Assembly (NCBI GenBank): GCA_021234155.1
Contig: JAJEKV010000049.1
Coordinates: 3,191,487-3,255,486 of the forward strand
DNA length: 64,000 nucleotides
Direction of reading: 5' to 3'
From: Isoetes taiwanensis
Taxonomy: Eukaryota > Streptophyta > Lycopodiopsida > Isoetales > Isoetaceae
Shown: in pieces, positions 38,738 to 59,797 of the stretch
How the letters are laid out: every line of letters begins with the position of its first letter
Numbering within the stretch: the stretch's first letter is position 1
Notes under the pieces: model-generated
The model's input: the letters and a program-made list of their open reading frames with translations, nothing else
Database searches by the model: none
What the model was told of the DNA's origin: nothing
Made by a program: the position numbers and the translations under genes

Positions 38738-41700
38738 ATGGCTGCTGTTTCTCCTAGGCGATCTGCGGGTTACCTGCATTCATCTCCGGGTACCCTTTCC
38801 TCATTAAGTCGTCCGCCCAGCCATAGAAGCCCTTCGAGTCGGTATGACAGAGAATCCTCTTTGGCGACCTCAAATGGTGGTGAGAATGCAACAGAAACTG
38901 CAGAAATGTTGGCTAAATTGGCCATTGAAGAATTTGCCAAGGATAGTGTCTTTTCTAAGTTTTTGTCTGATGACTTCAATGCTACACAATTTGCCAGTGA
39001 TGCATTGCGTAGTGGGTCTGCGGCGGCTTCTACAGAAAAGCTTGAGGAGGGAATTCAGCTGCTTGATAAACAGCTTAGGAATGAGATATTTCTCAGGCAC
39101 AATGAGCTTTTCCAGCAGCTTTTGCGGCTAAAGGATATGGAAGGTGCACTTACAGTTGTCAAGGCAGGAGTAAGTAGCCTTCAAAGCTCTTTGAAAAGAG
39201 TTAGGTCAGAGATTGCTGATCCATATAAGCAAATCAAGCTGAAGTCTCAGCAACTGTCATCTCTTCATGAAACCATCGAGCTTCTCAGGTCTGTTGTTAG
39301 AACCCTCAAACTGTTGAAAAGATTAAGGGAACTACTGGAAGCTGAAGGGGCAAAGTCAGATTTATCAAAGGCTGCTCAACTTTATAGTGAAGTAGAAACA
39401 TTGAGAAAGGAATCAGATCTTTCTGGAATTGAAATCATAGATGAGGAGATCCCTTGGTTCTTGGAAGCAGGAAATAAAATTAGGGCCGAAGCCATGAAAG
39501 GTTTGGAGAGAGGCATGGAAGCCCTTAATCAGGCTGAAGTCGCTAGTGCTTTGCAAGTATATTATAACATGGGAGAACTCAAATCTACTGTGGAAACAGT
39601 GGTTAATAGGTATAAGGTGCAAGCTATTAAGAGTATCAACACAGCATTAGATATGAAAGCGATATCTTCAAGTGCTGGCACTTCTGCCGGTCCGGGGGGT
39701 GTTCAAAGAAGTGGTACTCCACAAATTGGAGGTGGATCAAAGGCAAGGGAAAGCCTCTGGCAAAGATTGGCAGTTTGCATGGATCAACTGCACTCTATTA
39801 TTGTTGCTGTATGGCATCTGCAGCGTGTTTTGTCCAAGAAAAGGGATCCTATATCTCATGTGGGGTTTTTTGATGAAGTTGTCCAGGTATTTAAATTTCA
39901 GTCTTTCTGTTTATATTATGCAGAATTTGTTACGTAAACATATAAAGTTGGCTTGAATACCTTCAGGCTGGTGATTCATTTCTCACTGAGCGTGTTTGGG
40001 AGGCTTTGGTCAAATGTTTTACAAGTCAAATGAAATCTTATTTCACAGCATCAAGCTTTGTGAAAGAAACTTTTGTATCAGGCTATCCAAAACTTCTGGC
40101 AACTGTAAGTGGTCTGCTTCAGAAGGTTGTACGGGATACTGATGTAAAGGGCATTTTCCCAGCCATTAAAACTGAAGATGGGGAACAGCTCATAAGGGCA
40201 CTTGAGCCATTTCAGACCGCCTACTTGACTCAATGCTTGAATCGTTTGTCTGAGCAAGTGCATGGTATGTTCCCAGCAGCAATTCGGGGTAGCATACCTA
40301 CACAGGATCAGATTGCAAAATTTGTCATTCGGATTCAGGAGGAGATTGAAGCTGCAAAACTGGATACAAGACTCATGCTTCTAGTTTTACATGAAATTGG
40401 CAAAGCACTGCAATTGCTTGCAGAAAAGTCGGAATATCAGGTGTGTTACATGTATCTAACCTTTTATTCTTAAAAAAGTCTTTATTCCACAACTAAGATC
40501 ACGACTCACCATTTAGGTTTCTTAGAAATGTACTCTTGGAAACTAGGGCATTTTCTAAACACTGCCTTTGGTAGGTAGAATCCTTCAATTGAGCTTTAAA
40601 CATGCCTCTAAAACATGCATTGATAAGGACATTTGAATTTCGGTAGGGCTTATTTTTCTGAAGGAAGAGTCATTTGCAGTTTGCATTCAATTAAAGGTAA
40701 TATTATATAGCCTCTTCGTTTTTGGACTCCATTTGAAGACGCCATGTCACGCTTCATGCCATGCAATTGAATGATTATCTTTAATTACAAGAATAAAATT
40801 TCTAACATGTAAAACTGCTTCATTTAAGACAATTTTTCATCTATAATTCAAGTTTAGTGCGCTTTAGGATTTTAGATTTCCTTCATTCTGTTTCGTGCTC
40901 CTCTTTAGATTTTAACTTTTGTTAGGCTGCTTTGCATTTATGCAGATCACAACAGGTCCAGATTCACGTCAAGTGTCTGGTTCTGTAACCCCCCTGCAGC
41001 TGAAAAATTTTAGCCTCTGCCTCCATTTACAAGAAGTACATCAGAGAGTCACTGGCATGCTTGCTGGTCTACCAGATGCTGCAGCAGAGATGCTTTCACC
41101 ATCGCTTGGTTCAGTCTATGGTGTGACACTTGATACAATCACTCCGCTCTTTAAAGCCATGATGGAAAAGTTGGAAAACTGTATCCTAAAAATGCATGAA
41201 CAGGATTTTGCTTCAGATGCTATGGATGTGGATATGGATGGTGGTAAACAGAAATATTTGGAAGAGATACAAGAAGCCACACTACATTTTCGTAGCGAAT
41301 TCCTATCAAAGCTTATGCCTTCCCCTGCATCTTCATCTATTATAGGCGATTCAATCTATTCAAATCTTGCGAGGAAGATGGCATCACGTGTTTTGTTGTC
41401 ATTTGTACGCCATGCTGCATTAGTCAGGCCATTATCTGAGATGGGAAAGCTTAAGATGGCAAAAGATATGGCAGAACTTGAACTAGTCGTTGGTCAAAAC
41501 GTATTTCCAGTTGAGCAACTTGGTAGTACCTACAGAGCTTTGAGGGCGTTCAGACCCCTCATATTCCTTGAAACCACAGAAATTCTCAACAGCCCCCTCT
41601 TGCATGAACTTCCACCAAGTGTCATACTTCATCATCTTTTCTCCAGGGCGCCTGATGAGCTGGAGTCTCCCATGAAGCGTCTGAATCTTACACCTTTACA

Positions 41701-41884
41701 GTACTCATTATGGTTGGATTCTCAAGGGGAAGAACAAGCATGGAAGGGCATTAAAGTGGCATTAGACGATTATGCAACCAGAGTGAAATCTCGTGGGGAC
41801 AAGGAATTTAGTCCTGTTTATCCTCTTATGTTGCAGCTGGGCACAATTCTGATTGAGGAAAAGCAATCACAAAAGAATCAATAG
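38738..41884 (+). CDS. COG5: Conserved oligomeric Golgi complex subunit 5 (COG5)
   Basis: Three exons, 38738-39886, 39967-40440 and 40946-41884, with GT-AG introns of 80 and 505 bp, all phase 0, encode 853 residues, close to the ~830 of plant COG5. COG5 belongs to lobe B of the eight-subunit COG tether, a cytosolic peripheral complex that captures retrograde vesicles at the Golgi and so supports glycosylation and wall export. Recognised blocks: FAKDSVFSKFLSDDFNATQF (~67-86), the helical N-terminal bundle (~90-210) with IDEEIPWFLEAGNKIRAEAM, VCMDQLHSIIVAVWHLQRVL (~345-365), and the C-terminal SRVLLSFVRHAALVRPLSE and TPLQYSLWLDSQGEEQAWKG. The frame is intact in all exons. The start codon opens the first frame and precedes a Ser/Arg-rich N-terminus typical of plant copies. 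Confidence 0.95.
39887..39966 (+). other. COG5 intron 1
   Basis: CAG|GTATTT donor and CTTCAG|G acceptor; 80 bp. Reading through would hit a stop at 39935. Confidence 0.85.
40441..40945 (+). other. COG5 intron 2
   Basis: CAG|GTGTGT donor and ATGCAG|A acceptor; 505 bp, AT-rich, stops in all frames. Confidence 0.85.
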
Positions 41885-42619
41885 GATGGAAGTCACATAA
41901 GGAAATTTCTGAGATGTTTACTTCATTCTCTGTATTGCTTCTTGAACATGATGGCGGCCATAATTTTCCTTGTGCAAGTTGTATAGGTAGTTTTATATGA
42001 GAGGCTGTAATTCGGGCAATTGTTGTTTATGTTGAATGAATAGCTCTACCGGAGATGTATTTTTGGGAGCAAAGTTCATCGTGTTGTTGGAAAAGTTGTT
42101 TTCCTGGTCATCTAGCAACAACTTTGCGAGATAAAAGAACAAGACAAGTCCAACATGAAATTCAAATTACAATTGCTATTTAACACTACTTTCATGTAGG
42201 TATTTGACATGCCTTTAAGAATCAAAGGAAGTTTTATATGCCCAACAGAAAGTGTATTTTCAGAAGGCACCTTGTCTTATGATTGGCATCTAGAAAAACC
42301 TCAAAGGAACATTTCAAGAAAGCATGAAAAGGTGCCACAGGAATGTACAATATAGCACCTTCTGCACCATTCTTTCATAAGCAAGTTCAAAGAAATATTA
42401 TCAATTCATGACACCAAATTTCAACATGCTTGAAGTTGCTTTGGAAGATGGAGAAGAAAGATGGAACAAATTCGGGTTTGGAGTGCACACTGTGAACATG
42501 GTGTACTGACATGCCTAAAGCATACAATTTTTGGCATTCCGGAAAGATAAGTGAGAATGATGAGGGTTTCCAGGTGCTGCCTCCCTTGAGAAGATTGAGA
42601 TATGGTAAGTTGGCTTGTC
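41885..42619. other. COG5 3' UTR and spacer
   Basis: Sequence after the COG5 stop. The 3' UTR probably ends by about 42060. No gene or repeat boundary seen up to the LINE E end. Confidence 0.5.
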
Positions 42620-44633
42620 CATTATATTTATTTTATTTATTAATCAAGCCATTTAGGCCCCCAAGCCTCTATGGCAAAGAATACAAATTAATACTTTGGC
42701 ACTTAATTCAGAGTGCCATCAATATCAAAATTACTCATAAGAGTGAAAAGCTCAATTATGTCTTCTCGTTCTTTCAAAAGATCTCTAAAATATGAATATA
42801 AAGTATGTGCAGGCAAAAGGAAAAGTTCACCAAGTGTTAAAGCTATAATGCCATAACGAGCCCTTATCTGTTCGGAGTGCATGTTCTTCATCTTCAATTG
42901 CTAGTTCTAGGCAACTTGGATAAAACCGCTCTTTATGGGGTGTTTCATCCCACCTACCAGTCTCAATTCACAAATTATGAGATGATAATCTCATTTGCGA
43001 AATAAGCATGCGTTTCTTCCTGCTGATACATGAGAGTAGATAAGCTGCTCTTTATACTCTGCCAGATCGTTTAGATTAGTCAAGTAAAACTTCTTTTTTA
43101 CATCTTTATCATCGTCTACTCGCCAAAGTTTACGAATTGCTCATGCAGCTACATAATCATGTATCTCTTCAAAGTTCTGGGATAGCAGTCAATTGTCATC
43201 ATCAAGCCATTTCCTTGCCCATCACTTAACATCGGCGTACCAACCTTTTGTGCTATGCATAAAGGATTGGTAAGGTAATCGGTCAGTGTCCATATCTAAA
43301 ACCCTGTTAACAAATGAAATGGTTCTGCACTTGATTCCCAATTCAACTATCAAGAATCTTTTTTGTATCTTCTCTATATTGCTCCACCCCTTTGAAGATA
43401 AACCTGGCCCCCAAACCGGGCTTCCATAAAGAACCACTGTTTTTACTTGTATCCAAAAAAAAAGTTTCTTTAGTCGCCAATGTTCAAAATTGTTGATTTT
43501 GCACTGATTCATCATACTGTAAAACGCTCTGAGACCACCTGATGTACGTTTCTGAGCTGCCAATGTCCACTTATAATTATTTGACACTTCAATTCCTAAA
43601 TACTTATAATTCGTGACCTGTTCAAGTGGAACACCACCTACATAAAATATTGTGTATCCTGGCCTCCTAGCACCATTATCTTTGATTTATCGGGATTTAC
43701 CCTCATGTTTTTTTCTTCACGAAAGCCACATAATACATCTAGATGGTGTTGCAGTCCAGCTGGGTTCTTTGAAATTAATAACAATATCATCAGCAAAAAG
43801 CAGAAGCTGCAAAACATACCTTCCCAAATGGACTCCTAAACCTCCAAGCATCGTCGTCCAATTTTCTAGTTCATCTATGAACAATCCAAAAAGAATTGGA
43901 GAACAGGGACAACCTTGCTTTACCCCAATGGTATTCTGCACTTTTTCTGGCCCTGTAAATGGGAAAGATAGTTCTACTAGCACCCTGTAATATAAGCACG
44001 CAACTGCATGACGAAGTTCCTCTGGAACTTGTAGCATTTCCAGTCTGCAAGCAAGATCCTTCCTCTTAACTGTATCAAAAGCCTTTGTGAGATCTATAAA
44101 GGCAAGGTATCTTTTATTACTAGCACCCTTTGCACTTTCAAATAGTACTTGCAGTGTAACTAAATGGTCCAAAGTGGAGTGATCAGTTCTAAAACTTGCT
44201 TAACTAAAGGTCCGAATATCATTTTCATCTGCCCATAAAGACAATTTCCGTTCTAGCATAGACGCAAATAATTTAGCAAATATATTGCTCACTAAAATGG
44301 TCCGATAATTCTGCACATCATCTCTACTACCAACTTTATGAATAGATACAATCCTATTTAAGCACCATGTATCTGGAAATCCATTTTTCAAAGCATCATT
44401 ACATAGATCAGCAAGGAGTTCATGTAACTTGGATCCTTCCCATTTCAGAAGCTCGATTGTCAGCCCATTGAATCACATGCTCAGCCATTTGCCATATTTC
44501 TAAGCGCATCAGAGACATCTGTGTGTGTGTGTAAAAAACAATGATGCTTCTCCACTAAACGCGAAACCCTCTACATGAATAGTCTGATATAAGGCCTTTA
44601 CCAAATTAAAGAGATCATCTCTTTGGATATGGA
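42620..44633 (-). mobile_element. LINE family E, 3' half
   Basis: Minus-strand LINE from the linker before RT to the 3' end. Order on the minus strand: IQRDDLFNLVKALYQT (~44620), VSDALRNMANG (~44500), NGFPDTWCLNRIVSIHKVGS (~44390), FIDLTKAFDTV (~44095), GVKQGCPCSPILFGLFIDEL (~43900) and FADD (~43780). Then the thumb region, VKTVVLYGSPVWGPGLS (~43440), ETGRWDETPHKERFYPSC and EDEEHALR (~42940), and an A-rich end AATAAATAAAATAAA (~42630). The matching 5' half lies 13 kb away at 57562-59575. Several frameshifts. Confidence 0.82.
43222..44500 (-). pseudogene. LINE E reverse transcriptase remnant
   Basis: RT in three main frames (44391-44200, 44172-43717 and 43587-43222) with catalytic FADD in place of YADD. 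One break is a stop near 44200. It is related to families 1 and 2 by the GVxQGCPxSPxLFGLxID block and the Cys/His C-terminus, so these are sister lineages distinct from LINEs C and D. Confidence 0.8.
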
Positions 44634-44652
44634 TAAAAGCATGAAAGGGTGT
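44634..44652 (+). repeat. Left terminal inverted repeat
   Basis: TAAAAGCATGAAAGGGTGT, the exact complement of 57536-57554. The preceding ATATGGA matches the ATATGGG outside the other copy except for one base. Confidence 0.75.
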
Positions 44653-44956
44653 ACGTACATCGTACTGAATTGAAGGACGAATTCGTGCTTTTTCGGGCTA
44701 CATTTTGGGTGTACAACGTGACACTCCGATTTGTCTTTTTGTAGCAGGTCCGCAATGATTGCGAGAACATCCCCTGACAACCCACCGCCGGAATTCTTGG
44801 CGCACCGAATCGAACTCAGTTTGAATGAATCCGTCCCTCCCTTTTCAAAATTTCCCCCTTCCCAGAACGTTAACCAAACAAGAATCCTGCAAGAAAGATG
44901 GAGAATTTCACAAGAATTCTACAAGGAATTCCAATCAATTTCATTTTTGCAGATGG

Positions 44957-47928
44957 AGGGCGAGAACTCCATTGCAATTGCTGGTTCTAAATGCAGGTAT
45001 TCCGACACTGGCCTGTGCTACGCTACGAAACAAATAAAGCAGCGTGTTGATAGGTCGGTGGATTGCATTCTCAGCTGTTTGCAACCCCTTCGTCCAGATC
45101 AAAGAGTAGTCTTTGGTGCTCGTTTAGGATGACAGGCTTTTTTCTTTTTTCAAACCTGTGATTGGAAATCCTTCTGAAGTTATTGTTATGAAATCAATGA
45201 TCAGAAACTTGAAAGATGGGCTTCAAGACGTAAAATCTGCTAATAGCAAAGACCTGTTGGCTGCAAAACATTCGCTGTTATCAATGATTATTGGAAAAAA
45301 AAGGCGATATAAACAAGACTGTTTCTTCAAAATTACTAAAGATACAACCAAGAAATTTATCCAAAGCTGCAGCAAGAAGGAAGATAATGTCATTAAGTGG
45401 AGCAAACATGTGGGCTTTGGCAGGGAGAAGGCCAAGATCGAATAGAATCGATGACTCAATCAAGCGTCAGGTTCATGAATTTCGGCTTGATAATACCAAA
45501 GTTTCACCGAAGGTTAGAGATGTCATGAAGAGAAGAACACAAGCCATACAATACCTTGACATCTCACACGTTTGTTCTTGCAATTGAATCAATTCTCAAT
45601 GGAATCTGCAATTGAATCGATTCTCATTGGAATCTTATATTTTCTTCTCAATTCTTTCATGATCTTCTTGTGTACATTGCAGTACAGTTTCCCAGTGACC
45701 TCTTAGTGAATGCACATGGTTATCATGACATGTATTGCATTACAATGTCTGTTACATTGTTTACATGGTAGCAGAAATTTTGCAGTCATGTACCATTAGC
45801 TACTTTTTAGATGTGAATCCATTTACAGTTACACGTACATGCACCTGCATTTAACATGTACCTGCCTATTAGATTTACATCCCTTTATACTTAAATGTAC
45901 TTTCAGGTAATGAAGCCAAGAAGCTATAAGATATGTACATTACATGTACATTTATGTACATTCTATGTACAGTTATGTACATGCACACTATATGGACATC
46001 TCTAAAATTCGTTAAATGTACATCAGATGTACACATGTATTACAAATGTACAAATGTACTGATTAGTACTTTGGATGCATCTGCTTGCTTATAACAAATT
46101 GCTAACATGGTCTAATACTTGTGTTGTTGCAGTCTGAGCTTTATCAGCAGTTTGTCTAACAGAATCCTGATACCAAGATTCGCCTTCGACATTTTGAGTA
46201 TCTGAAACCTGAGTGTATAAGGAAATTGAAAGAGAGGAACACATGTTGTTGTGTCAAACATGAACAGGCATATCTGTACAGAAAGGCCTTCAATGATATG
46301 AGAAGGGCTCTACATGTTAATTGCACTTGCTGCTGCAGTGTTTGTGCATCCCAGGAAAACAATGGAGTGTGTCAAGCAAATAAGAAGACTTGATAATGTC
46401 AGCATCTTGTGGAGGTCAAGAGTTTGTGAGAAATATGTGACAGATGAATGGCATAAATTAAAATGTATCAAGGGTGAATGTGAGGAATGTGGAGACATTT
46501 GTCCAAAAGAGGAAGATGGAACATGCATGCAGGATGTCGATTGGCAAGTATATGCTTATGTCAATGAGCCTTCCAAGAAAGGTACATCCAGAAGGCTTAG
46601 ATTAGTTGCACAGCATGACAAGGTATCTGTCATGTTAAAGAACATGAAAAATCAGCTTGCTAAGTTTACAGATCATAACTTTACTGCACACTGGCAGAGG
46701 AAACAGTTCAAAAGATGTATTGAGAAACTCCCTAATAAGAGTGTGTTGTCTGTTGTTGACTTTGCAGAGAACTACACATTGAAGCCAGGGACAGAAGTGC
46801 AATCAGAGCACTGGAATCCTGATCAGATTACGATTTTGGTCCATATTTCAATGATGAAAAACGAAGGCAAGCTTACAAAAACAGTGCATTTCTTTGTTTC
46901 AGATGACAGGAAACATGACACTCATTTTGTACAACATGCTTTTAAATTACATTTGGCGTGGCTTAAGAATAATGGAGGCAGTGACATAAACCTTCATTAT
47001 GTGTGGTCGGATGGTTGTGCATCTCAATTCAAGTCTTCAAGGGTATGGTATGGAATCTGCAGATACCATGTTGAAAACAAAATTCGAGTGATATGGAATT
47101 TCTTTGGATCTGGCCATGGGAAAGGCACACATGATGGAGAGGCTGGTATAGCCAAGTTATGGCTTGAGAGCGAGCAAAGAAAACAAAATGGCATGCCAGT
47201 GACAGGTGCAGCAATAGCTTGTGCAGTTTTAAGGACCAAGGAATCGGAGCGTGAAAGGATATTTTGGGAGGTTGGAAAAACTGATGTGGACAGGCAGCAA
47301 GCATTTAATTGCAAGACTTTACATAATATTCAGCAAATACATTCCGTCTCAACCATAAACCCAAATGACCCAACGAAGTTGCTTTGCAGACCACTCTCGT
47401 GTTTCTGTGATGCTTTCATTATCTTCGATTGGCTGAATTGTGAGAACATACAACATTGTGGCGAATGGTCCCTGAAAAGTTTGGAGCCCACAGATCATGT
47501 TGCCTCTCGTGGAGAAGCTAAAAATGATGTGGATGTGTTGTATGCAGAAGACGAGCCTGGTTTAGATGACACCGTAGGAGTTTCTGATGTTTTTGTATCA
47601 TTTGCAGCACCAGACAATGTAGAAGGTGTTCCATACTATGTTCTAGTATGTACAAGGGAAAAACATGCATTGGAAGAAGATTCGGTTGATGACTATGGAA
47701 ATGAGTACGCTACTGGTACTAGAACTAATTCCAGGCTGCCACAACAAGTATAAACTACTTCCTAGTAAGAATCTTTTGGTACCCGCTGAATCCGTCATTG
47801 GGTTTAGAATTCCATTCAACAAAGTAACTCACAGGCTGAAGGGGGCGACCACAGCATTTCATTTGCCCGATGAAGTTCATGAGTCATTGCTATCACAACT
47901 TCCAACAATTGTAGATGTCATGGACTAA
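44957..47928 (+). pseudogene. Transposase-like gene (RNase H-like, D/D/D), lightly broken
   Basis: Exon 1 covers about 44957-45569 (frames 44957-45132, 45158-45445, 45291-45569) with NRIDDSIKRQVHEF, NTKVSPKVRDVMKRR and a GT donor at 45570. Exon 2 starts at 46133 after TTGTTGCAG; phases agree (0/0). It continues ELYQQF, IRLRHFEYLKPECIRKLKER, a Cys-rich region, then the 479-codon frame 46314-47753. Candidate catalytic residues in that frame: Asp149 in SVVDFAENY, Asp233 in VWSDGCASQFK, Asp274 (or Glu276) in GSGHGKGTHDGEAGIAK. Cys51/56/59/63 may bind zinc. Lesions: TAA at 46157, a frame change near 46330, frame changes in exon 1 and at the 3' end. I recall similar uncharacterised proteins from repeats in animals and algae, but cannot name a superfamily. 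Confidence 0.6.
45570..46132 (+). other. Probable intron of the transposase-like gene, rich in TGTACA
   Basis: Donor CAC|GTTTGT and acceptor TTGCAG|T keep the frame. Between about 45785 and 46070 I count roughly 14 GTAC cores, most within ATGTACAT-like palindromes. Confidence 0.6.
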
Positions 47929-47934
47929 CTCAGA

Positions 47935-48166
47935 TCTGGAGATGTGAACATACATTTACATACATCAATGTACATCTGTTGTACATCAGCGTACATTTTT
48001 GAAATAACTTGTATATCCCAATTTGAACAGAATTGAATAAAGTTTATTGCATAAGCATTTAATATCATTTTATCAATCTGAAGATAAGACATGAACAGAT
48101 TTTCATGGAAAAATGGTCTATATATTCATATTGTACAAATAAATACAACATATTTATACCACGGGT
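47935..48166. other. Spacer between convergent genes
   Basis: Shared 3' region of the plus transposase-like gene and the minus Ulp1/HAD gene, with three more GTACAT motifs at 47968-47995. No gene. Confidence 0.5.
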
Positions 48167-48762
48167 TCATGGTTCATGGTGTACTTTCAAAATGTCCTCA
48201 GGGGGCTTATATCTAATGACTTCTGCATTATGCCTTCCTTTCTTCCAGTTGGCTGTAGAAATGCTCTCCAAAGCAGTAGTCCATGCTGTTTCAATTGCAC
48301 GTGCCATTGGGAACCTACCCCATCTTATTCGTTCCTCATCCACTACAATTGGTTGCCCCCAAGGGTTATGCACCAAATGATTTGCTGCCAACCGAATTTT
48401 CATTTGATCTCGTTCTCCCTTATCTTCTACATTGTCAACTTTTTCCCAAATTCCAGGAAGAGCGGTATGGCAGCGAGGACTAGTGCCCAACCCAATGTAC
48501 TTGCAGCTTTTCGTGGTGGTTTGAGCATCCGGGCGCAACAGAATTCTTTCCCTTAACAATTTAATAGTCTTTTGCACATTAGTCCCTTCATCTACAAAGC
48601 AAATTAAGATCACTTAAATATATGTAGACACTGAAACTTAAACCAAATATGAAAGGAGAGAAAAACTTGTACCAAAACAGAATACTCATGTGCACTTTGA
48701 ATAACAAAAAAACTGTCATATATTTACATCTGGAAAATGTGTACATCAGTTAAAGTCTGTAC

Positions 48763-49515
48763 CAACAATAGGCCATTCGAGAGGCCAATAACAGTTTGGC
48801 AATTTCTCCATTCCCTGCTCCACGTATTAACTGAACTTAGAAAGTAGAGCAGCCAAGTTATTGCCATAGTTACCCAGCAAAATGCCTTCAACCTGCTCAG
48901 ATATTCCATCTGCTGCATTACTCATTGGGCGCTCCTTCACGTAGCTTGTAGCATCTGCAACAACTTTTAAACCACTAAGCCAGGGAATGAGTTCCATGAC
49001 AAACAACATGTCGCCCTGTAGAACTGGTGTCCAAGAGAAAGGACATATGAAGCTTCCTGCAGGATTCAGCGTTGCTTTGTATCTTTCGTCATTGATTAAA
49101 ACTGTATTGGCATAGTATTCAGGATACTCTTTCCATACTACAGCTAATGGTTTCACAAACAATCCTTTGTCTGGTTCAGTGGGATGTTTGTGTGGAAGAG
49201 ACCAACAATGCTTCTGACTGTAAATAAACTTCAGTTTTATGCCAAAGACATTGCAGATATGGTCCACAACTGGCTGCAGATTCTTTGATGTGAGTGATGA
49301 CCAAATGGCAACATCAAAATGCTCTCTAACAAATGCTAACAGTGATGCTAGCCCTGGCCTACAATAAAATATCCTGTTTCCTAAATCAAATTTCAGCTCA
49401 TCTTTTTGAATCTTCTGGTATCTTGAGTTCGCAGCATCACTCTTGTGGACGCTTTTGCCCAACACAGAATTTAAGTCAAATACAATGAGCTTCATGATTG
49501 ACTCAGATGATTCAC
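48763..49515 (-). CDS. Exon encoding FCP1/HAD-like phosphatase domain
   Basis: MKLIVFDLNSVLG opens the domain; numbering from that Met, Asp7 is the HAD nucleophile and the normally acidic +2 residue is Asn9. WSSLTSKN (~65-72) fits motif II, Lys115 in LFVKPLAVVW motif III, and NDERYKATLNP (135-145) motif IV. FCP1/SCP relatives dephosphorylate Ser/Thr, classically on the RNA polymerase II tail, using DxDx(T/V). The Asn may lower or abolish activity. The frame enters in phase 1 from the upstream exon (G|GT), so this is an internal domain, not a separate gene. After the TAA at 48829-48827 coding continues for 21 codons to a GTACAG donor. Confidence 0.65.
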
Positions 49516-49904
49516 CTGTGTCAGCAACAAAACACTTGAGAGTAGAGTGAAAGAAATATAATTACAGTAAATATATTACAGTGAAATACATGTTATTACA
49601 CAGTTAATGTTTGCACAGGTACAAGTGACATAAGAAAGTCATATTTCCATTAATTGTTGAATACAAAGAAAAATGAGCATGACTCATGATAAACTGTAAT
49701 TCATATGGCCAAACTATTTACCCATGGTAAGAACAACACTTTGTATGTCCATCTCGCCTTCGACAATTAGAACCTCTATTAGATGATTTCTCCATGACTT
49801 GGCATAGGCATCAGTGAACCAGTTGGATGTCATCTGCATGGTTCACAAGTATTAAAAAACTGTATCAGCAAAGAATGCACAAGAAAATACTTTGTTCTAC
49901 TTAC

Positions 49905-50741
49905 AAAAATGGAACTTGGTTGTGCAACAACCACGGCATCGATGAATGCGTGCATGTAAGCCACAATGTATGTGCAAGGAGTGCTGTTACTGGTTTCAGG
50001 CACTTTGGGATGGTGGACAGGGGCATCAAAATTCTTCCTGCCATGGCTTAGACTGTTGGATCGCAACATCATGTTATTAATCACAAGCTTATGAAACCTG
50101 CAAGATCGCAATGTGAGAATAAGGAAAGCATAAGAAGTTGCAATATGTGCATAATCAAATGATTCAAAAGAATTCGAAACTGATACTACTTTTGAAGTAG
50201 TTTAGCGTCCACTGCGTAGCCTTTGACAGGAGATAATATCTGTATGCTTGGACTCACTAAATATGGGAGAGCGTTTTTGAGTGGACCAGCAAGCACAAAT
50301 ATTGCCAAACCAAAATTTGGCCCTTGCAGAACCGGGACAAAAATATATTGACATCGTGCAAGCACAATACCATCCATCCCTTCCTTTATGTGGGTGTTCT
50401 GGACATTTGCAGAACTCCTGTTCTTAAGGGCACTCACAAAATTGAGGAAGCTCTCTGGTTTGAACATAAAGAACTTATTTTTAAGCTCAGATGAAAGAGA
50501 GCTGCAAAGGTACATGCACACGAATCCAAAAGATATATTAATACTCTGAATGAGTGTAAGAATGAAATAATAGAAAAAATATTTAAAAGCCTACCTCCCA
50601 TACACTTCTACCATCTTTGATGTCAAGTCAAGCTTCCAGCAAAACTCGTCAACATCGGTTTGGAACACAACAGGTGCAGGCTTAGGTGGACAGTCCCTGT
50701 GAGGAGTGAATGGGACCAACCTTCTCAGTCGGTCCATTAAA
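49905..50741 (-). CDS. Exons encoding degenerate Ulp1-like (C48) protease domain
   Basis: Three exons (50741-50595, 50501-50190, 50097-49905) join in frame. Ulp1-like order is visible: LTSKMVEVYG and MFKPESFLNFVS before CQYIFVPVLQGPNFGLAIFVL, where peptidases of this family have an F-PV block followed by HW; then VPETSNSTPCTYIVAYMHAF, matching the (P-Q-x-x-N-x-x)DCG(V)(F) Cys block. The His is replaced by Asn, the DCG Asp by Pro, but the Cys is kept. Ulp1 enzymes cleave SUMO. Plant Mutator-like elements are known to carry Ulp1-like genes, but the accompanying transposase here is of another type. Confidence 0.5.
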
Positions 50742-51769
50742 CTGTACAAGGCAACGAGAGTATTAGCATCACAAAAATTATATAAGTCATGAATAAACAA
50801 GATACTCACTTTGCTCTGTCATCACCATCCTTTGTGCCAGAGTCAGAGGCTGCTCCTTCTGCATCTTTTGTGGACTCTTGCATCTTGTTTGCTATGTCAT
50901 CAAGCGCGCGATCAATGTCCTCTTGTTCTGGTTCTGACTCAGAAGCAGGTTTATCCTTAATTTCAACTTGTGATATTGTCCTATGTATTGAAAAACTATG
51001 GTTAATTATCATAAAGCTGAGATGATTAAACAAATTAGCTAACTAATCCTGCACATACCTCTTTCTTGGTGGTGGTAGTGCCTTGCCTGGGGATTTCCTT
51101 TTTGGAGGGTTCTTTTTTGCTGTAGCCTATTTTTTTCCTCGTGGAGTTACAGCAACAACCTTCTTTTGTTTCCTCCTAGGAGTAGACTCAACATCCACCT
51201 CTTCCTCTTGGGGCTCCTCTTCCCTGCACTTGCCTAGGTTAAAATCAGGATCTGTATCCACTGTAGCATCTGTAATAGGTACAGAACTAGCTTCTGCAGA
51301 TGATGCTGATGTTGATGATGGAGCAGACCCTGATTTTGCAGCATCTGAAGCTTTCTCTGGAGATTTTCCAATTACTAATATTTCAGTTTTTTCAGTTAAT
51401 GATTTTGCAGCTTCTGATGGACCTAAGGATACAGTTTGATCAATTGGTAACGTATTTGCAATTCCTGCTGCTCTAGCTCTCAAAACTGCCATCTTCTCAA
51501 TTTGTTCAATTTCAGACTGCCATGTTCGAGCTGGGACTATTGTGACAGGTTCTGTTACTGGCAGAGACATCCTGGTTGGTGTTTTGGAAGTGGAATCTGG
51601 CATCTGTTCATATTGAAGGTTTTCACGGTCATCACCATCTGTACACAAAGTCGATGCAGATGGTTCAGCAATGTCAGCGACGGTAGGTTGCATGGAAGTG
51701 GCCTTTTGGATATAAACATCCTCATCTAGAAACAAACAAATGGTGTAAATGTTAATACACATAAAAGCA

Positions 51770-52270
51770 AAACTCAATGTTAATAAACATGAAAATAGAA
51801 CTTAAGTATGAGAAATATCAGGTACATTCTGGTACATCCACCTGTGACATGTACATTTCATGTACATCGAATGTATCAAATGTACGTAACTTTAAAAGCA
51901 GCCATTCAACCTACGTCTATTGTACATTTAATGTACATATAATGTACATAATGTATATAGGTGGACCCAAGCATGCAGATTGCAGAGAGAGAGAATATAG
52001 ACCTATGCCCAAAAAATGCACATATATGTAACAAAGGTACATTAAATATGAATCATCTACCGATGCACTCCAACCACAGGAACATATGCATCCAAAAAAG
52101 GAACATGTACATCTACTTGCAGATGTAGACTCAATTAAATCCATGTATAACTAATACATAAAACAAATCATACATATGCAGCCCAAGCTAAAAAATAGAA
52201 GCATCAATAAACAAGCAAGTATATGCCTATGTACCCCTGCAAACAGATGTACAATAAAAAAAAACACATA
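51770..52270. repeat. TGTACA-type motif cluster
   Basis: About a dozen GTAC cores, mostly as ATGTACAT, in AT-rich sequence that is probably intronic for the minus gene. Confidence 0.6.
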
Positions 52271-52377
52271 CAAGGAACAACAATGCACTATAAGACATAC
52301 ATGTAGAACTATGTAGATTACAGTAACAAATATGAATCAAGAGCAATCTAAGATTAATCATTTAGAGTAATGCATAC

Positions 52378-52627
52378 CTTGTCCAGCAGGGAAACCAAGC
52401 TGATTTTGAATCCCTCATCCCAAATGCAGCCTTTTATGCAATTCTGTTTTTCATATACGAGATAAGACAAGCAAAAGAGGCAATAAGGATCTCTGCAAGG
52501 AGCCAGCAGCACCAAACCAGATTTGCCAAAGCCTTGGCCACAACAGGTACACGAATTGAATGAGATGAACTCTTGTACAGAAGTAGCTCCTACAGGATTT
52601 GGCCTAAGAAGCAAAGTTTCATTAAAT
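52378..52627 (-). CDS. Candidate RING-like zinc-finger exon
   Basis: After acceptor TTTCCAG the frame reads NETLLLRPNPVGATSVQEF, then FNSCTCCGQGF, LLAPCRDPYCLFCLSYL and QNCIKGC, and reaches an AAG|GTATGC donor at 52378. The Cys spacing (C-x2-C, C-x4-C-x2-C, C-x3-C) resembles a short RING or related cross-brace finger. It lies 650 bases upstream of the Ulp1/HAD gene on the same strand, but its exit phase (0) does not match the next exon (needs 1), so a further exon or lesion is required if they are joined. Confidence 0.45.
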
Positions 52628-52639
52628 CTGGAAAAATAT

Positions 52640-55600
52640 GAATGCAATGGAATTTTTTTATGGTAGGGTTGTTGGAGGGTTATATATACCTGTTGTAGGG
52701 TTATGCACGTTGTAGGGTTATGTATACTTGTTGCAGGGTTATGTATACCTTAGATTAAACACACATATCTATATATACACGAATACATTGACATGTGTCA
52801 TACCTACCTCAACATGATATGTAATGCATTTTAGCATACACAACTAGAATAAGGATACATCTGATACATACAACTAATTCAAGATAAGAAACATACGATA
52901 TATAAATATGATGTTATAATCTAAGAGAACCTTTGATTGATGTTATGTCCTTCCACACGTCTACTTGGAACCTTCATTCGTCAAATATAGAACCACAGAT
53001 CCTGCATTGCATGTCCATAGACCCAATTAGCTCATTAAGGTTGAAGATTTCCATGCATCAACATCATTATACGTACTATCATGAAGCCAACTTGGATTTC
53101 ATCAATACGTCATCTATGCCAAGACAGATAGTAAAACACATACTTGTTTTTGGAGTATTGTTAATGCTTCTTGCAAGGATATGATATGGTATCATTGACT
53201 GCTTGCATACATCACCTACCTACATTTAGCAACAAAGTAGGTGATGGTGGGACATCCTGCACGATTAAAAAGAGAGAGGAAAGTCAATCTACATGCCAAA
53301 TATAAGTCATTAGTGAAATAGTCTCCACTTATGGAGTCATATGCTCCACTTGAGTAAAATGGGGCCACTGCGCCATTTAAATGGTGTGATGCCTCATTTG
53401 AGTCAAACTAAAGTAAATGGAATGTCGACATGCAGAAAATGGTGCCATATAATGGTAGCTCCATTTACTACTAATGTCACCATTTAAATAGCTTCATGGC
53501 TCTATATTAGATTAAATGGAGCCTGACAGAACCAAATGTCATCTCCATTTTAGGTTTTACATTTTGACTCAAATGGGGTAGGCTTTTTATCTATTCATTA
53601 CATTCAATCTGACATCAACTCATTGTACACTATAAATTTCTGCTAAAATTCCTGGCATTCTATTACTCTTTTATATGCATCTATCCACTTAAAACTTACA
53701 CATCAATACCTATCAAAATTTAAAGCACCAACCTCGGAAAGAATAGTGTAGAGAAGAGGTTTGGAGTTGATTACAGCAGTAACATTGGAATGTAGAGAAG
53801 ATGCAAAGCCAATTTGTCCATGCCACGAGCTAATACCTTGATGATCAACAAAGAAAAAAAGAACTTTGCAAGATCAAGCATCTAAGATTAGCTCCATATA
53901 GAATGCGTAAACTAAAGCAAGAATAGTACCCATGTAGGCGCTTAGCATATGACGTGCATCCGCGTTAAACAAATTGCATTCGCATGGTGTGTCGCAGAGG
54001 AAGCGCTAAGATGGAAATAAAATAACCTCCTTTCTAAATGGCATTAACATGGAAGGCTTTTTTAATTTCGAAATAGGGATATTAGAGGTAATTCAAAATT
54101 TGAATTCAAATTTTAGATTGACGGGCGGGATTGGGGGGAATTTCAAAATTTGAATTCAAATTTTAAAATGAGGGGCGGGACTTGGGGGGAACTGAAAAGT
54201 TTGAATAACATATTCCCTCCAACCCCTACTTTCAAAATATTTTACCATTTCCATTCCACCATATTGCTCTCCTTCTCGACCACCGTATCATTTGTCGCCA
54301 TGAATATTGTCCTCCACCGCCTCCTCGTCCAATGCCCCTACACACCTCCATAAACCTTCACAACGTGCGTTATGCAGCAGCACCACAAGCGCTTCATCCT
54401 GGAACACTGTATAGCCTCCTACCACCAACCTAGTGCTCTTCTCCTCCTCCATTGCCATATCCTTTGTTGTCATACCATCGTCATCTATTGCCTCCTGCAC
54501 CAGCACCCTCTAGCTCCAGCATCTTCTCTTCTCATTATCTCCTTCTCATGTGCTCCTCTAGCATCTCGTCTTCTCATGTTCTCCCCTAGGTTTACCTCCC
54601 TCTCTCTCCCTCTCCCTCTTCCTCTCCCTCCCTCCCTCCCTTTCTTTGTTAGTACAGTTGGATTATGTTGTACCAAGTGCCATTTGATGATGAAGTAGCA
54701 ACTTATACAATTGGAGTAGCATTCTACATGTTTAGCCTTTACGAGTTACCAGTTGAATATCAGTTGGCATGCACATTCACCTATAACTCTATAATTCTTA
54801 CCCGAATATGGGCTCTACTAGGACCCATTGCTCTTTGACCAGCTCCAGCACCATCATCAAGGATCTACAAGCAAGCAAATATTTTAGAAGAAAAAATAAG
54901 AATTCTTGGTTGAAAAGTGTTTACAGTGCAGAGGAGAGACCATTGATTATATTCACATGCTGCAACTCTTGAATTACATGCTGCAAACACATCAACATAT
55001 CTCTTGATTTCAGTTTGGATTTACTGCAAGATGATTTTAGTAGCTTTCAGAAGCCTTTCGTATGCTTTGATGCATCAAGACACAGCTGGTAGCAGTTATT
55101 TAATGCCTCAGCCAATGGATCTCCATAGTTACTGCAAGAACAAAAACGCCAAGACTAAAATACGTTAACTTGTTTACCATAGCCTAACAGAATGCATGTG
55201 CAAAACCCCAACATTATACTTACCAAGTCCAAGCCATAGAGCTGTGGCGGTTGGATCTTTTGACTTATTCCGTGTTTCTGTGCTTCCGATGAAGATCATC
55301 GAGAACGGCTTAATCTGTACCTGACTTTAAGTTGAATCTTGAATGGGACGCAGTGCCGAAAATATATCACCTGCATTTGTGCGATTAGAGAGTTAGGAAA
55401 GCCTGCAAGCGTGGCCCATCCTTGCCATGGAATCATGATTTCGTAGCACTTTCCAGAAAGAAAATAAATAGTTTAGACCGATCCATAGTTTCATAGAGTT
55501 TTAAGAAGTCTCAGGTATTACCTGAATACCATGGCTCTTGCAGACTTGGAGCAGTGTAGAGGTTGCAAAGCTCGGATCATTCACCCTCCGAAGGCAGCGG

Positions 55601-56300
55601 TCACCTTGGATTTTTTGGCGGACCTCCAGGTTTACCAAGCTCCATTCCGGCGCCAGAGAGCTGCTGTGAGATCTTGGATTTCCGTCATCTTGGAGCTTGG
55701 ATTTCTTAGGGATGAGCTGCAGCGCCGCCAGAGGGCCGCTGAAGAGATTTTAGGTTAGAAAGCCGCTGGAGATATTTTAGGGTTAGGAACAGAGAATTCT
55801 TAAGTCTTCGTTATGTACAAGGTCTAGTTTTCTAGAACGTATTTTTTGGCAACACTAGCCACTAGGTCTTGCACCATACTGTAAAAATAAAATGATCGAC
55901 GTAAGATAGCTAGATAGATAACTATTTGACCATTTTAGCCCTAAATCTTGTGACTAATATTTATAAAATCTTACGATTCTTTGTATAATTGGTTCTTGAT
56001 AATAATCAAATGGCACTATTTTGTTTGATTTACTTCCACAGTTAACTTAAATAGAGCGAGTTTTCACTTCTAAACTTAATAAGGTTGGGGTATTGAAATG
56101 CTATTTATCATTATTTTGTTTGTTTTGCATCCAATGGTACCACGTTCTTGGTAAAATAATTGGTTGGTGGCGCCATTTGCATTCTTTTTTAGGTTGTTTT
56201 CCGCTGTTTTTTCCCCAAATGGCGCAATTTTAGGCACGAAATATAACAGAAATTAAAAAAAAAAAAATATTTTCGAGCAAAATTGGAATCACCAAATTTC
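52640..56300. other. Non-coding interior of the large element
   Basis: No convincing gene. It contains a possible MITE (53395-53575, 13-bp inverted ends CATTTGAGTCAAA), a 50-bp tandem duplication (54091-54190), a CT-rich tract (54595-54645) and a short open frame at 55531-55758 (Arg/Ala-rich, no known domain). It may include the 5' exons and promoter of the Ulp1/HAD gene. Confidence 0.5.
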
Positions 56301-56321
56301 CAGATTTAATGAAACTGTGCT

Positions 56322-57483
56322 TTAAGGTGCAGAGCAATAGGTCCTGCTCTCCCCATGAAATTCAAAAATCTGGGAATGCCTTTGTTGAACAAGTTCCATG
56401 CAGCTAAGTTTCTCCTTTGCTTGTTGAATTGAAATTTTATGTTTTTCAATGTCTCTAGTTGCTTCCTGCAAACCAATCTCTAGCTTAGAACAGTGCTGCT
56501 TCTTCTCTGTTCTACTCATAACCAAGTCTTCCAATTTGCATTTCAAAACTCCATAGCTAACTTGATTTTCAGCAGGATCATTGGCCAATTTGTCAAATTC
56601 CAACTTCGTGTCTTTTATTTTCAGGAAAATCTGCTGCAAATCTTCTTCTAGCATATCCTTTTTACCCTCAATCCGGCTGATCACTTTCAATGCATCCCTC
56701 CTTTTGGCTTCCAGTGCTTCCACTTCATTCAATAGGTTAATTTTATCCTCTGAACCATTCTTAAGTAACTGATTTATTATGTCAACATCAAATTTAGAAT
56801 AGCCTAAAGCCCTAGCATTCTGATGCAATACCACCTCCTGCTTGATGTTCGACGATTTTCTTGTTGTAGGTTCCTCTGTAATATCTGAAGTTTTGGCAAG
56901 ATCCTTGGCGGTCTTAGCAACATCCACCCAATCAATAAGGCGTTCCTTCAAATGAAGAGCAAATGCCCGAGCAAAATATGTGGAAATATAGTGGTTTGTT
57001 ACCTGCTTCTTGCCATAAAACCAATTCATAATATTTAAAAAATTCTTCTTTCCATGCATTCTGAACTCTGCCTTCCTTGAATCCTCTTCTATTCTTTGGA
57101 GCTGCACCCCATACTTCATTCATAATTTCCTCGAGTCTGGGTATGTGGATCTCGGCATGTTTTTCACGGAGGTCTTTGGCTTGGATCACAGCCAAAAGTT
57201 TTCTCTTTGTTGGTAATTTTCCACTGCCGGAATTGCTAGTTTCTTGGTTCGGCTGTGGTGAAGAGCAAGCACTGAGTTGGGGAACAGATTTTGGGGCCAT
57301 AAGTGGACCAAGAATTGGTGATCGGAGTGGAGGCAGAGTATGCGCGGGCGGGATAGCGAACGCGAGGCAAAGCAGTGCAAGAATTTGGTAAAGAAATTTA
57401 AAATCCGAAAATGGTGCGGTTGCAGAGTGGTGGATAGCATTAATCATGGCAGTTACTAGCGGTTCATGATTATAGGACTCCAT
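56322..57483 (-). pseudogene. Coiled-coil protein gene beside the right terminus
   Basis: Frame 57483-56932 starts about 50 bases inside the right inverted repeat. Candidate start MAPKSVPQLSACSS (~57300) is followed by KRKLLAVIQAKDLREKHAEI and EIMNEVWGAAPKNRRGFKEG. It overlaps frame 57119-56322, which ends in about 160 residues of heptad-rich helix (LEAKRRDALKVISRIEGKKD, LEEDLQQIFLKIKDTKLEFD, EKHKISIQQAKEKL). A one-base frame change in the overlap joins them into a ~390-residue protein. I do not recognise the family. Position suggests a DNA-binding or accessory factor of the element, but this is inference. Confidence 0.45.
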
Positions 57484-57535
57484 AATTTGTGCATTGGGTA
57501 CATATGTATATGTATAAAAAAGGCTACATTTCTAG

Positions 57536-57554
57536 ACACCCTTTCATGCTTTTA
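57536..57554 (-). repeat. Right terminal inverted repeat
   Basis: ACACCCTTTCATGCTTTTA, exact complement of 44634-44652. LINE E sequence resumes just outside. Confidence 0.75.
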
Positions 57555-57561
57555 CCCATAT

Positions 57562-59575
57562 TACCTATGCCCATATGTTTTTTGCATCGGCTATCTCCTG
57601 TTCCGTCATGACCATCTCTTGATGCTTCCGTAGCCACTCTCTTTTCTTTCTTTTTACTACTATATTCTTATAATGTTTCAAATCTCATATCCCTTTACTC
57701 TGTTTAAATGTCCTCTTTGCGTCAAAGCATTCTTTATCAAACCATTTACTATATGTTTTTCTTTTTCCCTGTGGGTTTGTATATCCAAAAACAAAGGATG
57801 CAACATCCTGTATCAAATGCTGAATCTGCATATTTCTTTCTTTGCTGCCATCCCATTTTATGTTTTCCAGTTTTTGCGTCAATCTATCTTCATACTTGGA
57901 TGCTAATTTGTAGCTCATCCTTAATTTCAGTTGTGGCAGAACTGGTGGCATACTTTTATTGCACTTCATATCCAAACAAATGTGCAAGGGTGCATGGTCT
58001 GAGTCTGGATTCCTGTCCATAACAATAAATACTGACACGAGCTGTATATTACTTGGTTCACCGATTAACAAATCAACAGTGCTACAACTATTAGGCTGGA
58101 AACATGTAAGTCCTCCGGAGTCAAAATATTTTTTAAGGCCATTGTAGATTTTCATATTAAATGATTCGCATAATGCAAGAAGATGCCTTCCCATCTTATT
58201 TTGCATGCAATCTACGGATGTTCTTGACCAAGCATCATGTTTCGCAGTTAAGTCATTTAACCACAAGTCATTACCTTCTCCTGGCAGCAACGTGGCTTGC
58301 GTATCACTGATTCTGCTATTTAAGTCACCCATTATGAAAACTGGTCCTTTTTGCTGATATTTCAAGACATCAGAGGCTAGGTGGAGAAAGGGATCATCAG
58401 CACTCAAACATTTTTTTGAATATACCGCAATAGGCTGTGGATCTAATGGCGCAAAATAAGCAATTGCAAGGTATACATCTGCCTTACTTGTATGAAATTT
58501 TAGCCAGGCATACTGCGCATATTCATCCTTCTTCTCCATTGTGAAAGATTTTACAATGCTTTTCTTTGCATAGCAAGCTATTCCACCCCATCCCCTTCTG
58601 CTGTTTCCAATAGGATTCCGGACTGAATCGATAATCTCAAAGCCAGAAATTGCCAATAACCTGCTAGTCTCCGATTCCCATGTCTCTAAAAAAGCCAGTA
58701 TATCATATTTTTGAAACAGAGTATCATCGCTGATGATAGTATTCTCATTTAAACCATAGACATTCCAAATTAGAAGCTTGAAGGCATCGTTTCCCTATGC
58801 CCGATTACAGACAACCAATCTGTTATTAATAATATGCGCATTTTTTCCCTCATCTTTCAGTTTATTAACTTCATCTAAGAGCTGTCTCCGTTCTTTTTGC
58901 TGCTGCAGCGTTAAATCATCATTTAACCAGAGTTTCTGCCCTTTGAGATGACTTCTGTGTTGCATCACCCTTGTTCGTGCTTCAATTGATCAAAATTTCA
59001 GCAATATCAGTCTATTTCTGCCTTCTATCTTTTTGCCAAGTCGCCTGCAATACAAGACTCCTGGGTCTACCAAATGCATGCATTCTCTAAAAAACATATC
59101 AACAGTATCATTAATGTTCTCACCTTCTTATTCCTTTTAGACCAACAACAATAGTATTCTTCGCCCTTACGGTCCCTTTCTTCTTGCTCAGACAGCCGCT
59201 CCTACCCTTGTGCAAAAAAGGATGTAACCTTGTTCTCTAAATTTGAGGTGATCTGTGCTATTATATGTTCATGGTTTTCAGATTTAAAATCAGATTGAGA
59301 CGAACCAGTGTCTCCTTTACTTCATCCAATCCTGATTGCACCTCCTTTATGCTGCTTTTGATTATCTGTAATTCATCCTTCACTGTCTTTATCTCCCCCT
59401 AAACATTTCGAATCTCTTCTCTGGCAGCTTTCAATTCATCTGTAACAAGTTTTATCTCATCTCTTGCTGCCTTCAATTCAGATGTGAGACCCTGAACCAG
59501 GTGGATTAGCTCGTCTTCCTCCTCCAACGGCTCTACTCCCTTACGAGATGCCCTTTTAAGGGACATCGCTCAACC
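57562..59575 (-). mobile_element. LINE family E, 5' half
   Basis: Minus strand: ORF1 with a coiled coil (LVQGLTSELKAARDEI, DELKAAREEI, KSSIKEVQSGLDEVKE) from 59567, then an RNA-binding-like part ending LKGQKLWLNDDLTLQQQKER and GKNAHIINNRLVV (~58960-58820), as in L1-type ORF1 C-termini. Next is the endonuclease (FKLLIWNVYGLNENT..., ~58785). The linker SKWFDKECFDAKRTFKQ (~57740) continues to KHQEMVMTEQEI and is cut at the element's right terminus. Stops and frameshifts in ORF1. Confidence 0.8.
57685..58656 (-). pseudogene. LINE E APE-type endonuclease
   Basis: A 323-codon open frame covering most of the endonuclease: GWGGIACYAKKS, VYLAIAYFAPLD, FIMGDLNSRISD (metal-binding GDLN) and DSDHAPLHICL (catalytic SDH). 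The upstream opening IWNVYGLNEN is cut off by a stop near 58660. This is the longest undamaged LINE E segment. Confidence 0.85.
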
Positions 59576-59797
59576 AAAAAGGTCCGACCTATTTCAAGGG
59601 CGCCCAATTAAGCGCCAAAGTTCCGCCAAAATAAAGCACAAAAAAGGGTTGGAAACATTTTTGGGACCTTTTTTTTGGCATGTAACATCCTTTATCTAAT
59701 ATCTCTTACTTATAGAGACATTGTTGGAATGCTGAAGGATATGTAATGGGCACACATGAAGAATGACTCGGTGGAAGAGTGGTGTAATCCCACCAAT

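Follow-up and report, generated by a model that had tools for sequence, protein, structure and literature searches.

A 64,000-nucleotide stretch of the Isoetes taiwanensis genome (assembly GCA_021234155.1, contig JAJEKV010000049.1, positions 3,191,487 to 3,255,486; hereafter the window, in whose own numbering all coordinates are given) contains a cut-and-paste DNA transposon at 44631-57557, recognized by terminal inverted repeats (TIRs) shared among dispersed copies and by target site duplications of fixed length. It is almost certainly a two-gene transposon, in which a transposase gene converges with a multi-domain companion gene bearing Ulp1-like and NIF-like domains, while arrays of a short motif with an ATGTAC core lie in the introns of both genes and between them. 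The explanation that we favor overall, at a probability of about one half, is that the companion is a selected part of the transposon that would act through the arrays against silencing.

A TIR transposon inserted in a LINE

The initial annotation described a DNA transposon that had entered a long interspersed nuclear element (LINE) and that carried a transposase gene together with a converging multi-domain gene, and this description was borne out. The perfect 19-bp inverted repeat on which it was based is present at 44634-44652 and 57536-57554. In an initial set of 28 end loci, the copies become alike from a GGG (GGA or another variant in a few) that precedes the 19-bp repeat, and the left terminus in the window reads GGA where other copies mostly read GGG. 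Because the copies are alike from three bases outside the 19-bp repeat, the termini are 22 bp in length and the element spans 44631-57557, so that the limits proposed originally (44634..57554) were too narrow by three bases at each end. With one mismatch or fewer, the 22-bp terminus occurs 494 times in forward and 517 times in reverse orientation in the 1.66-Gb genome, and the resulting 1011 occurrences against 0 for the reversed control indicate that the inverted repeat is not a matter of chance.

The target duplication, thought at first to be TA at most, was found to be 4 bp in length (ATAT) on both sides of the element. A perfect 4-bp duplication flanks 28 of 32 copy pairs and none was found for the remaining 4, two sets being pooled in this count. 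In the first set, inspected by eye, 10 of 12 copies with both ends carry the duplication (C121 and C667 do not), C1028 being included among the 10 after one extra terminus base was allowed. In the second set, computed from the terminus listing, it was present in 18 of 20 further pairs (the exceptions being C193 and the C4 miniature). The count as a whole omits the C952 pair, because its left end is without a terminus. The duplicated words differ between copies and include GACT, GCCA, TGCA, TAAG and AAAG, among others. Two copies with the duplication, C1048 and C1053, span 29 and 48 kb, and further insertions must therefore sit inside them.

The two LINE halves were also confirmed to belong to one LINE. 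When the flanks were joined with one ATAT kept and used as a query, 34 of the 40 scored matches ran across the junction, of which 20 cover bases 1-398 or more and one reaches only 27 bases beyond it. The window's own LINE halves match query positions 1-200 and 197-400, and their overlap is exactly the 4-bp duplication; 4 of the 40 matches stop before the junction, begin after it or pass it by a few bases. Searching the host genome with the termini for other copies and for empty sites, as had been proposed, thus yielded both. Likewise, the internal genes, for which a single-copy, syntenic state in relatives without the inverted repeats would have spoken against a transposon, are multi-copy in this genome, as are the termini. 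The empty LINE site and the 1011 termini rule out host genes lying between chance repeats, the LINE matches that run uninterrupted through the insertion site rule out a part of the LINE itself, and the inverted rather than direct orientation of the termini rules out a long terminal repeat element.

Among the 100 exact termini listed, 25 facing pairs were found, with 13 of 9.1-9.8 kb, 10 of 252-265 bp and 2 longer, giving a typical full-length element of ~9.2 kb. The ends of all 10 short pairs (L087-L096) are like those of the large element while their middles are mostly without a match to it; given these ends, the short pairs look like miniature derivatives. Of the block of ~12.9 kb in the window, about 3.7 kb is a separate nested transposon with inverted repeats of its own, AAGCAMAGTTTCATTAAATCTGGAAA. 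The nested terminus occurs 31 and 21 times in the two orientations (52 genomic occurrences with one mismatch or fewer; control 0). Copy C1032 (L049 with L031) can be aligned with almost the whole of the window's element except for 52607-56326, which it lacks, and copy C1065 (L050 with L032), itself altered by a further insertion and a deletion, is also without the nested stretch. The nested 3714-bp transposon is not part of the ancestral element, and its absence from these other copies means that the window holds a decayed 9.2-kb element plus a nested insertion. The reading frames of both genes are interrupted in the window copy.

The flanking LINE lies on the minus strand at 42600-44630 and 57562-59700, with endonuclease (PF03372) and reverse transcriptase (PF00078) stretches, and 34 other places in the genome match its middle part across the insertion site. 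Near both elements, plus-strand open stretches at 39946-41884 resemble, by eye, what we take to be a COG5-type vesicle-tethering protein. Coordinates of the transposon's features are collected in Table 1.

Table 1. Features of the transposon and of the nested insertion, in window coordinates
Feature	Position	Strand	Basis or remark
Target site duplication, left copy, ATAT	44627..44630	.	Terminus alignment; LINE half-match overlap at query 197-200
Left TIR, 22 bp, GGATAAAAGCATGAAAGGGTGT	44631..44652	+	Repeat search, copy alignment, genome count; GGG in most other copies
Transposase exon 1, ends approximate	44953..45560	+	Frame interrupted here, open in the C1032 copy (L031)
Transposase intron, approximate	45561..46140	+	With ATGTAC-core array
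Transposase exon 2, approximate, presumed catalytic core	46141..47927	+	Frame interrupted here
Candidate acidic residue Asp, VDFAENY	46758-46760	+	Predicted
Candidate acidic residue Asp, WSDGCA	47010-47012	+	Predicted
Candidate acidic residues Asp and Glu, GHGKGTHDGE	47133-47135 (Asp), 47139-47141 (Glu)	+	Predicted
Short intergenic stretch between the converging genes	47928..48169	.	3 ATGTAC cores
Companion C-terminal domain (LPGxWEKV...NPWG)	48170..48613	-	Without Pfam match; relatives beside L068, L085 and L086 transposases
Companion NIF/FCP1-like phosphatase domain	48830..49561	-	PF03031, E 6.2e-14; motif I DLNSV
Companion Ulp1/SENP-like domain, two exons and short intron, ends approximate	49895..50577	-	Without own Pfam match
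Companion low-complexity charged linker exon, approximate	51130..51801	-	Counterparts in L049, L069
Companion intron, approximate	51750..52390	-	With ATGTAC-core array; low end overlaps the open linker stretch
Companion Cys-rich exon	52354..52606	-	RING score E 0.43, below Pfam cut-off
4-bp duplication of the nested element, TAAG	52605-52608 and 56323-56326	.	
Nested 3714-bp transposon	52609..56322	.	Without counterpart in two other copies
Companion N-terminal domain and coiled coil, ends approximate	56327..57360	-	Frame interrupted here
Right TIR, 22 bp, GGGTAAAAGCATGAAAGGGTGT on the minus strand	57536..57557	-	Repeat search, copy alignment, genome count
Target site duplication, right copy, ATAT	57558..57561	.	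Terminus alignment; LINE join

The transposase and its possible affiliation

The transposase gene consists of two exons of approximately 200 and 590 codons with one intron between them, and 95 scored matches in the genome merge into 88 loci that are 47-100% identical. Three motifs, VDFAENY, WSDGCA (rarely WSDSCA) and GHGKGxHDGE, are kept across the transposase families and would fit a D-D-D or D-D-E pattern, from which the chemistry of the enzyme is predicted. Pfam gave no match above cut-off for the transposase of the window (searched to E 1), or for those of the distant loci L068 (E up to 5) and L086 (E up to 1), both of which are 54% identical to it; DUF3122, Pro-kuma_activ and Citrate_synth_N scored below the Pfam cut-offs and were judged chance, a sub-cut-off Pro-kuma_activ score appearing for both L068 and L086. 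No credible relative was found in PHROGs, in PDB sequences or in phages (tblastn), nor in alignments against viral contigs and an 84,980-species prokaryote collection, scans that operate through a few short peptide patterns. A single-sequence structure model of the window transposase, built with no alignment, had a mean predicted local distance difference test (pLDDT) score of 34.8, too low to be informative.

The transposase may found a new superfamily, the nearest candidate among known ones being Sola, compared by description only. We see an even chance that the element is an ordinary Sola member in which the companion and the arrays alone are new, or in which a repeat database already lists these as well. 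To our knowledge, Sola transposases are unlike other known transposases, and the acidic-triad pattern proposed here would be compatible with a DDD transposase. Sola2 shares the 4-bp target duplication and can carry extra captured proteins such as Fanzor1 (PMC3627910), and Sola occurs in plants, Sola1 being listed for the moss Physcomitrella (PMC9033089). However, this likeness is one of description (duplication and host range) and not of transposase sequence, termini or target preference. Sola2 duplications are AT-rich (PMC3627910) whereas those of this element are mixed, and the Sola descriptions consulted mention neither an Ulp1/NIF companion nor ATGTAC arrays, both of which this element has.

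The companion gene as part of the element

The companion runs on the opposite strand, from the right end of the element toward the transposase. Its Ulp-like exons in the window have no Pfam match of their own. When a profile of window-type Ulp-like exons was compared with PDB sequences, SENP7 ranked first and second (E 0.0075 and 0.0093, each value being a sum over two stretches that are weak alone). The counterpart at L086 (745-1312), with two exons joined by us, matched Pfam Peptidase_C48 at E 9.5e-8, above the curated cut-off; the second exon alone also passed the curated cut-off (E 2.9e-4) and the first alone gave no match. This domain is 32% identical to that of the window, and its best PDB match is SENP7. 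The reading of this part of the companion as Ulp1 follows from the profile that places SENP7 first and from the L086 counterpart that passes the Peptidase_C48 cut-off.

Pairing of the two genes was then evaluated across the genome, where at least 146 NIF and at least 143 N-domain merged loci are present; the neighborhood counts given here and below are among the matches listed. A NIF domain lies within 15 kb of 28 of the 88 transposase loci, in every case on the opposite strand and downstream of the transposase, and at 1.0-1.6 kb in 21 of the 28, with an expectation of 0.005 per locus by chance. An N-domain was found near 18 of the 88 loci, and 17 of the 20 relations between the two are ordered as expected; 54 of 56 relations between N-domain and NIF within 15 kb have the same direction and order. 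With window queries, a companion was detected in the vicinity of 33 of the 53 transposase loci that are 60% identical or more. Three loci below 60% identity were inspected (L068, L085 and L086, picked for their open frames), and all three carry the companion C-terminal part converging on the transposase. The NIF stretch of L086 is 30% identical to that of the window and scores 21.4 bits, just under the Pfam cut-off of 21.8. The presence of companion parts beside these diverged transposases indicates that the gene pair predates the split of these families, and other family members may have lost the companion.

At L085, a more diverged NIF domain (E 6e-9) and a C-terminal companion piece lie on the plus strand (1-1478) just before the transposase of another family, and another companion lineage is thus present in the genome.

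Between families, the ratio of nonsynonymous to synonymous substitution rates (dN/dS) is 0.12-0.29 for the transposase (0.16 for the 54% identical L068 transposase, with dS near saturation), 0.20-0.32 for the NIF domain and 0.29-0.43 for the Ulp-like exon (13 loci below 70% identity). The N-domain gave 0.38 and the C-terminal part 0.34-0.50. In comparisons inside the family, values of 0.94, 1.06 and 0.72 were obtained for the transposase. We consider the companion very probably to be under functional selection.

Arrays of ATGTAC cores and the proposed role of the companion

The motif ATGTACAT occurs 11 times in the 9213 bases of the element and 0 times in 51 kb of flanks; 60 shuffles gave 0.23 occurrences on average and never more than 2. 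Counted as ATGTAC/GTACAT cores, the transposase intron contains 14 (24 per kb), several of them 10-11 bp apart, and the companion intron 12 (19 per kb), while the intergenic stretch reaches 12 per kb. Lower densities were obtained elsewhere: the two outer stretches of the element have one core each (3-5 per kb), the six coding stretches that were counted have 0-2.3 per kb, and the flanks have 0.4-0.5 per kb. When the distances from one core to the next were measured at 12 loci, several of which belong to a single family, 72 of 228 came to 10 or 11 bp. Phased arrays were also found in the matching transposase intron of L033, L034, L035, L038, L068 and L086, with the array word changed in L068 and L086 to one like GTACATTATGA. 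Each of the ten miniatures contains 3-6 cores (GTACAT-type), compared with shuffle means of 0.30-0.41, and in nine of the ten the count was reached by 0 of 300 shuffles. The arrays are probably protein-binding sites.

For the workings of the system, we infer a live ancestor that would have been a cut-and-paste transposon of about 9.2 kb with two converging genes, of which the window holds a decayed copy. The transposase would cut and paste the element, and the companion, as a selected part of it, would act in trans so that copies stay active. Tethered most likely to the intronic and intergenic ATGTAC-core arrays, the companion might, through SUMO- or chromatin-related contacts, lift the silencing imposed on the element and its 260-bp miniatures. 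The model for this role is provided by the VANC/KIU proteins that act on VANDAL transposons of Arabidopsis. Ulp1/SENP (C48) peptidases use a His-Asp-Cys triad and the canonical motif I of NIF/FCP1 phosphatases has the form DxD. Given the residues altered at these positions in the companion, as described below, both domains may bind rather than catalyse. The anti-silencing role as such is a tentative assignment, to which we give somewhat less than even odds.

Arrays serving transposition itself are nearly as likely as the anti-silencing reading. In that case the arrays would bind the transposase, or a companion that assembles the transposition complex, making the companion a transposition cofactor instead of an anti-silencer. 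Two-protein transposons with a cofactor exist, the helical spacing of 10-11 bp would fit a cooperative nucleoprotein complex, and the retention of 3-6 cores by the 260-bp miniatures is what a cis requirement for mobility would demand. By contrast, the dense arrays are internal (introns and intergenic stretch), at a distance of some 1.3 kb or more from the termini, and each outer stretch of the window copy has a single core.

Several observations weigh against the anti-silencing explanation or narrow what can be drawn from the data in its favor. It could just as well be the transposase that the arrays serve. The array loci and the miniatures are kin by descent, so that their counts are not independent; the miniature cores show no 10-11 bp phasing, the core count of miniature L096 was reached by 2 of 300 shuffles, and none of the 11 cores at L085 are spaced at 10-11 bp. 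In the window-type Ulp1 domain, compared with SENP7 and L086, the Cys is retained but Asn and Ser occupy the presumed positions of His and Asp, respectively, and motif I of the window NIF domain is DLNSV, not of the DxD form. This motif reads DLNSV in five of the six copies showing motif I and DLNFV in the sixth (seven rows, one copy appearing twice); DxD-like matches (FDLDEAV and the like) were dropped as antisense to transposase exon 1. At L086 the CysGly is kept and Asn occupies the Asp position, with a HisHis found by eye at about the His position, outside any SENP7 alignment. Unlike the window family, L086 thus has both CysGly and HisHis, and the protease part may have lost its activity in one branch.

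Pairing and constraint have limits of the same kind. There is no scored NIF domain within 15 kb of 60 of the 88 transposase loci, 3 of the 20 relations between transposase and N-domain are not in the expected order, the companion is near only 1 of 37 transposase loci below 60% identity when window queries are used, and L086 alone among L068, L085 and L086 has the Ulp1 part. Within the family, dN/dS is already 0.30-0.51 for the NIF domain and ranges from 0.19 to 2.5 for other companion parts; with companion values this low or scattered, only the transposase shows a clear difference from the values between families. The constraint figures come mostly from families with 76-81% identical transposases and not from the 54% level, and most of the Ulp-like loci used for dN/dS were taken irrespective of a neighboring transposase. 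Finally, the likeness to VANC is one of layout.

That the companion is a mere passenger, made of captured host Ulp1 and NIF gene fragments without a role, is very improbable and was already disfavored: Ulp1 domains have been transduplicated into plant MULE and CACTA elements (PMC2528002) and the Ulp1 and NIF enzyme motifs here look altered, but the converging orientation is identical in all 28 transposase/NIF neighbors scored, homologous domains adjoin a 54% identical transposase, and between-family dN/dS is below about 0.5 for every domain measured.

In its fullest form, the anti-silencing reading would have a non-MULE lineage evolve sequence-specific anti-silencing independently of Arabidopsis VANC, with a companion resembling a SUMO protease and a phosphatase of the C-terminal domain (CTD) that reads helically phased, family-specific ATGTAC arrays and keeps 9.2-kb copies and 260-bp miniatures mobile, and with a transposase that may found a new superfamily. 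This combined claim is doubtful, and we would expect it to fail sooner than to hold in all its parts.

Comparison with known transposon systems

Kolobok and piggyBac elements target TTAA and are ruled out, none of the 28 duplications being TTAA. MuDR has two converging genes, and MULE target duplications are 8-9 bp in length. The resemblance to MuDR suggested by the initial annotation holds for the layout of two converging genes and fails elsewhere, since the lack of a MULE transposase match in Pfam for the window, L068 and L086 and the 4-bp duplication in 28 of 32 pairs rule out a MULE or MuDR element.

Ginger1 elements make a 4-bp duplication, as found here, and many of them have an Ulp1 domain; they have TGTNR ends, TIRs of 40-270 bp, CCGG/CCGT targets and a Gypsy-type integrase with fused Ulp1 (PMC2836005). 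By contrast, the present element has GGG ends, 22-bp TIRs and mixed targets, and its Ulp1 domain is in a separate gene. Ginger1 is ruled out by the GGG ends, the mixed targets and the lack of an integrase match in Pfam for the window, L068 and L086. Among the titles and abstract beginnings listed in searches of open-licence PMC articles, with Repbase and Dfam outside their range, there was neither a NIF/FCP1 domain in a DNA transposon nor an element of this kind in Isoetes.

The closest parallel in organization is that of the VANDAL transposons with VANC and of the elements with KIU (Kaonashi). VANC binds short motifs that lie in introns and between genes, frequently as tandem repeats (PMC5735166), some VANC genes carry Ulp1 (PMC13317346), and KI-MULEs have their Ulp domain in the opposite direction to the transposase (PMC2528002). 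The present element likewise has a VANC-type layout, that is, a second gene, with an Ulp1-type domain and opposite to the transposase, together with short motif arrays in non-coding stretches whose word differs between families, as VANDAL motifs do (PMC5735166). VANDALs are MULEs, whereas this element has no MULE match and differs further in its 4-bp duplication, its ATGTAC-cored motif and its added NIF domain. Sequence-specific evasion of silencing by a transposon has been described for Arabidopsis MULEs through VANC (PMC5735166). If the explanation favored here is true, the Isoetes element would represent a second such system, with a different transposase and the same layout of an Ulp1-type companion and intron motif arrays, and thus a case of convergent evolution. 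It would also provide further protein families and target words for comparison, in a system made testable by its high copy number and its miniatures.

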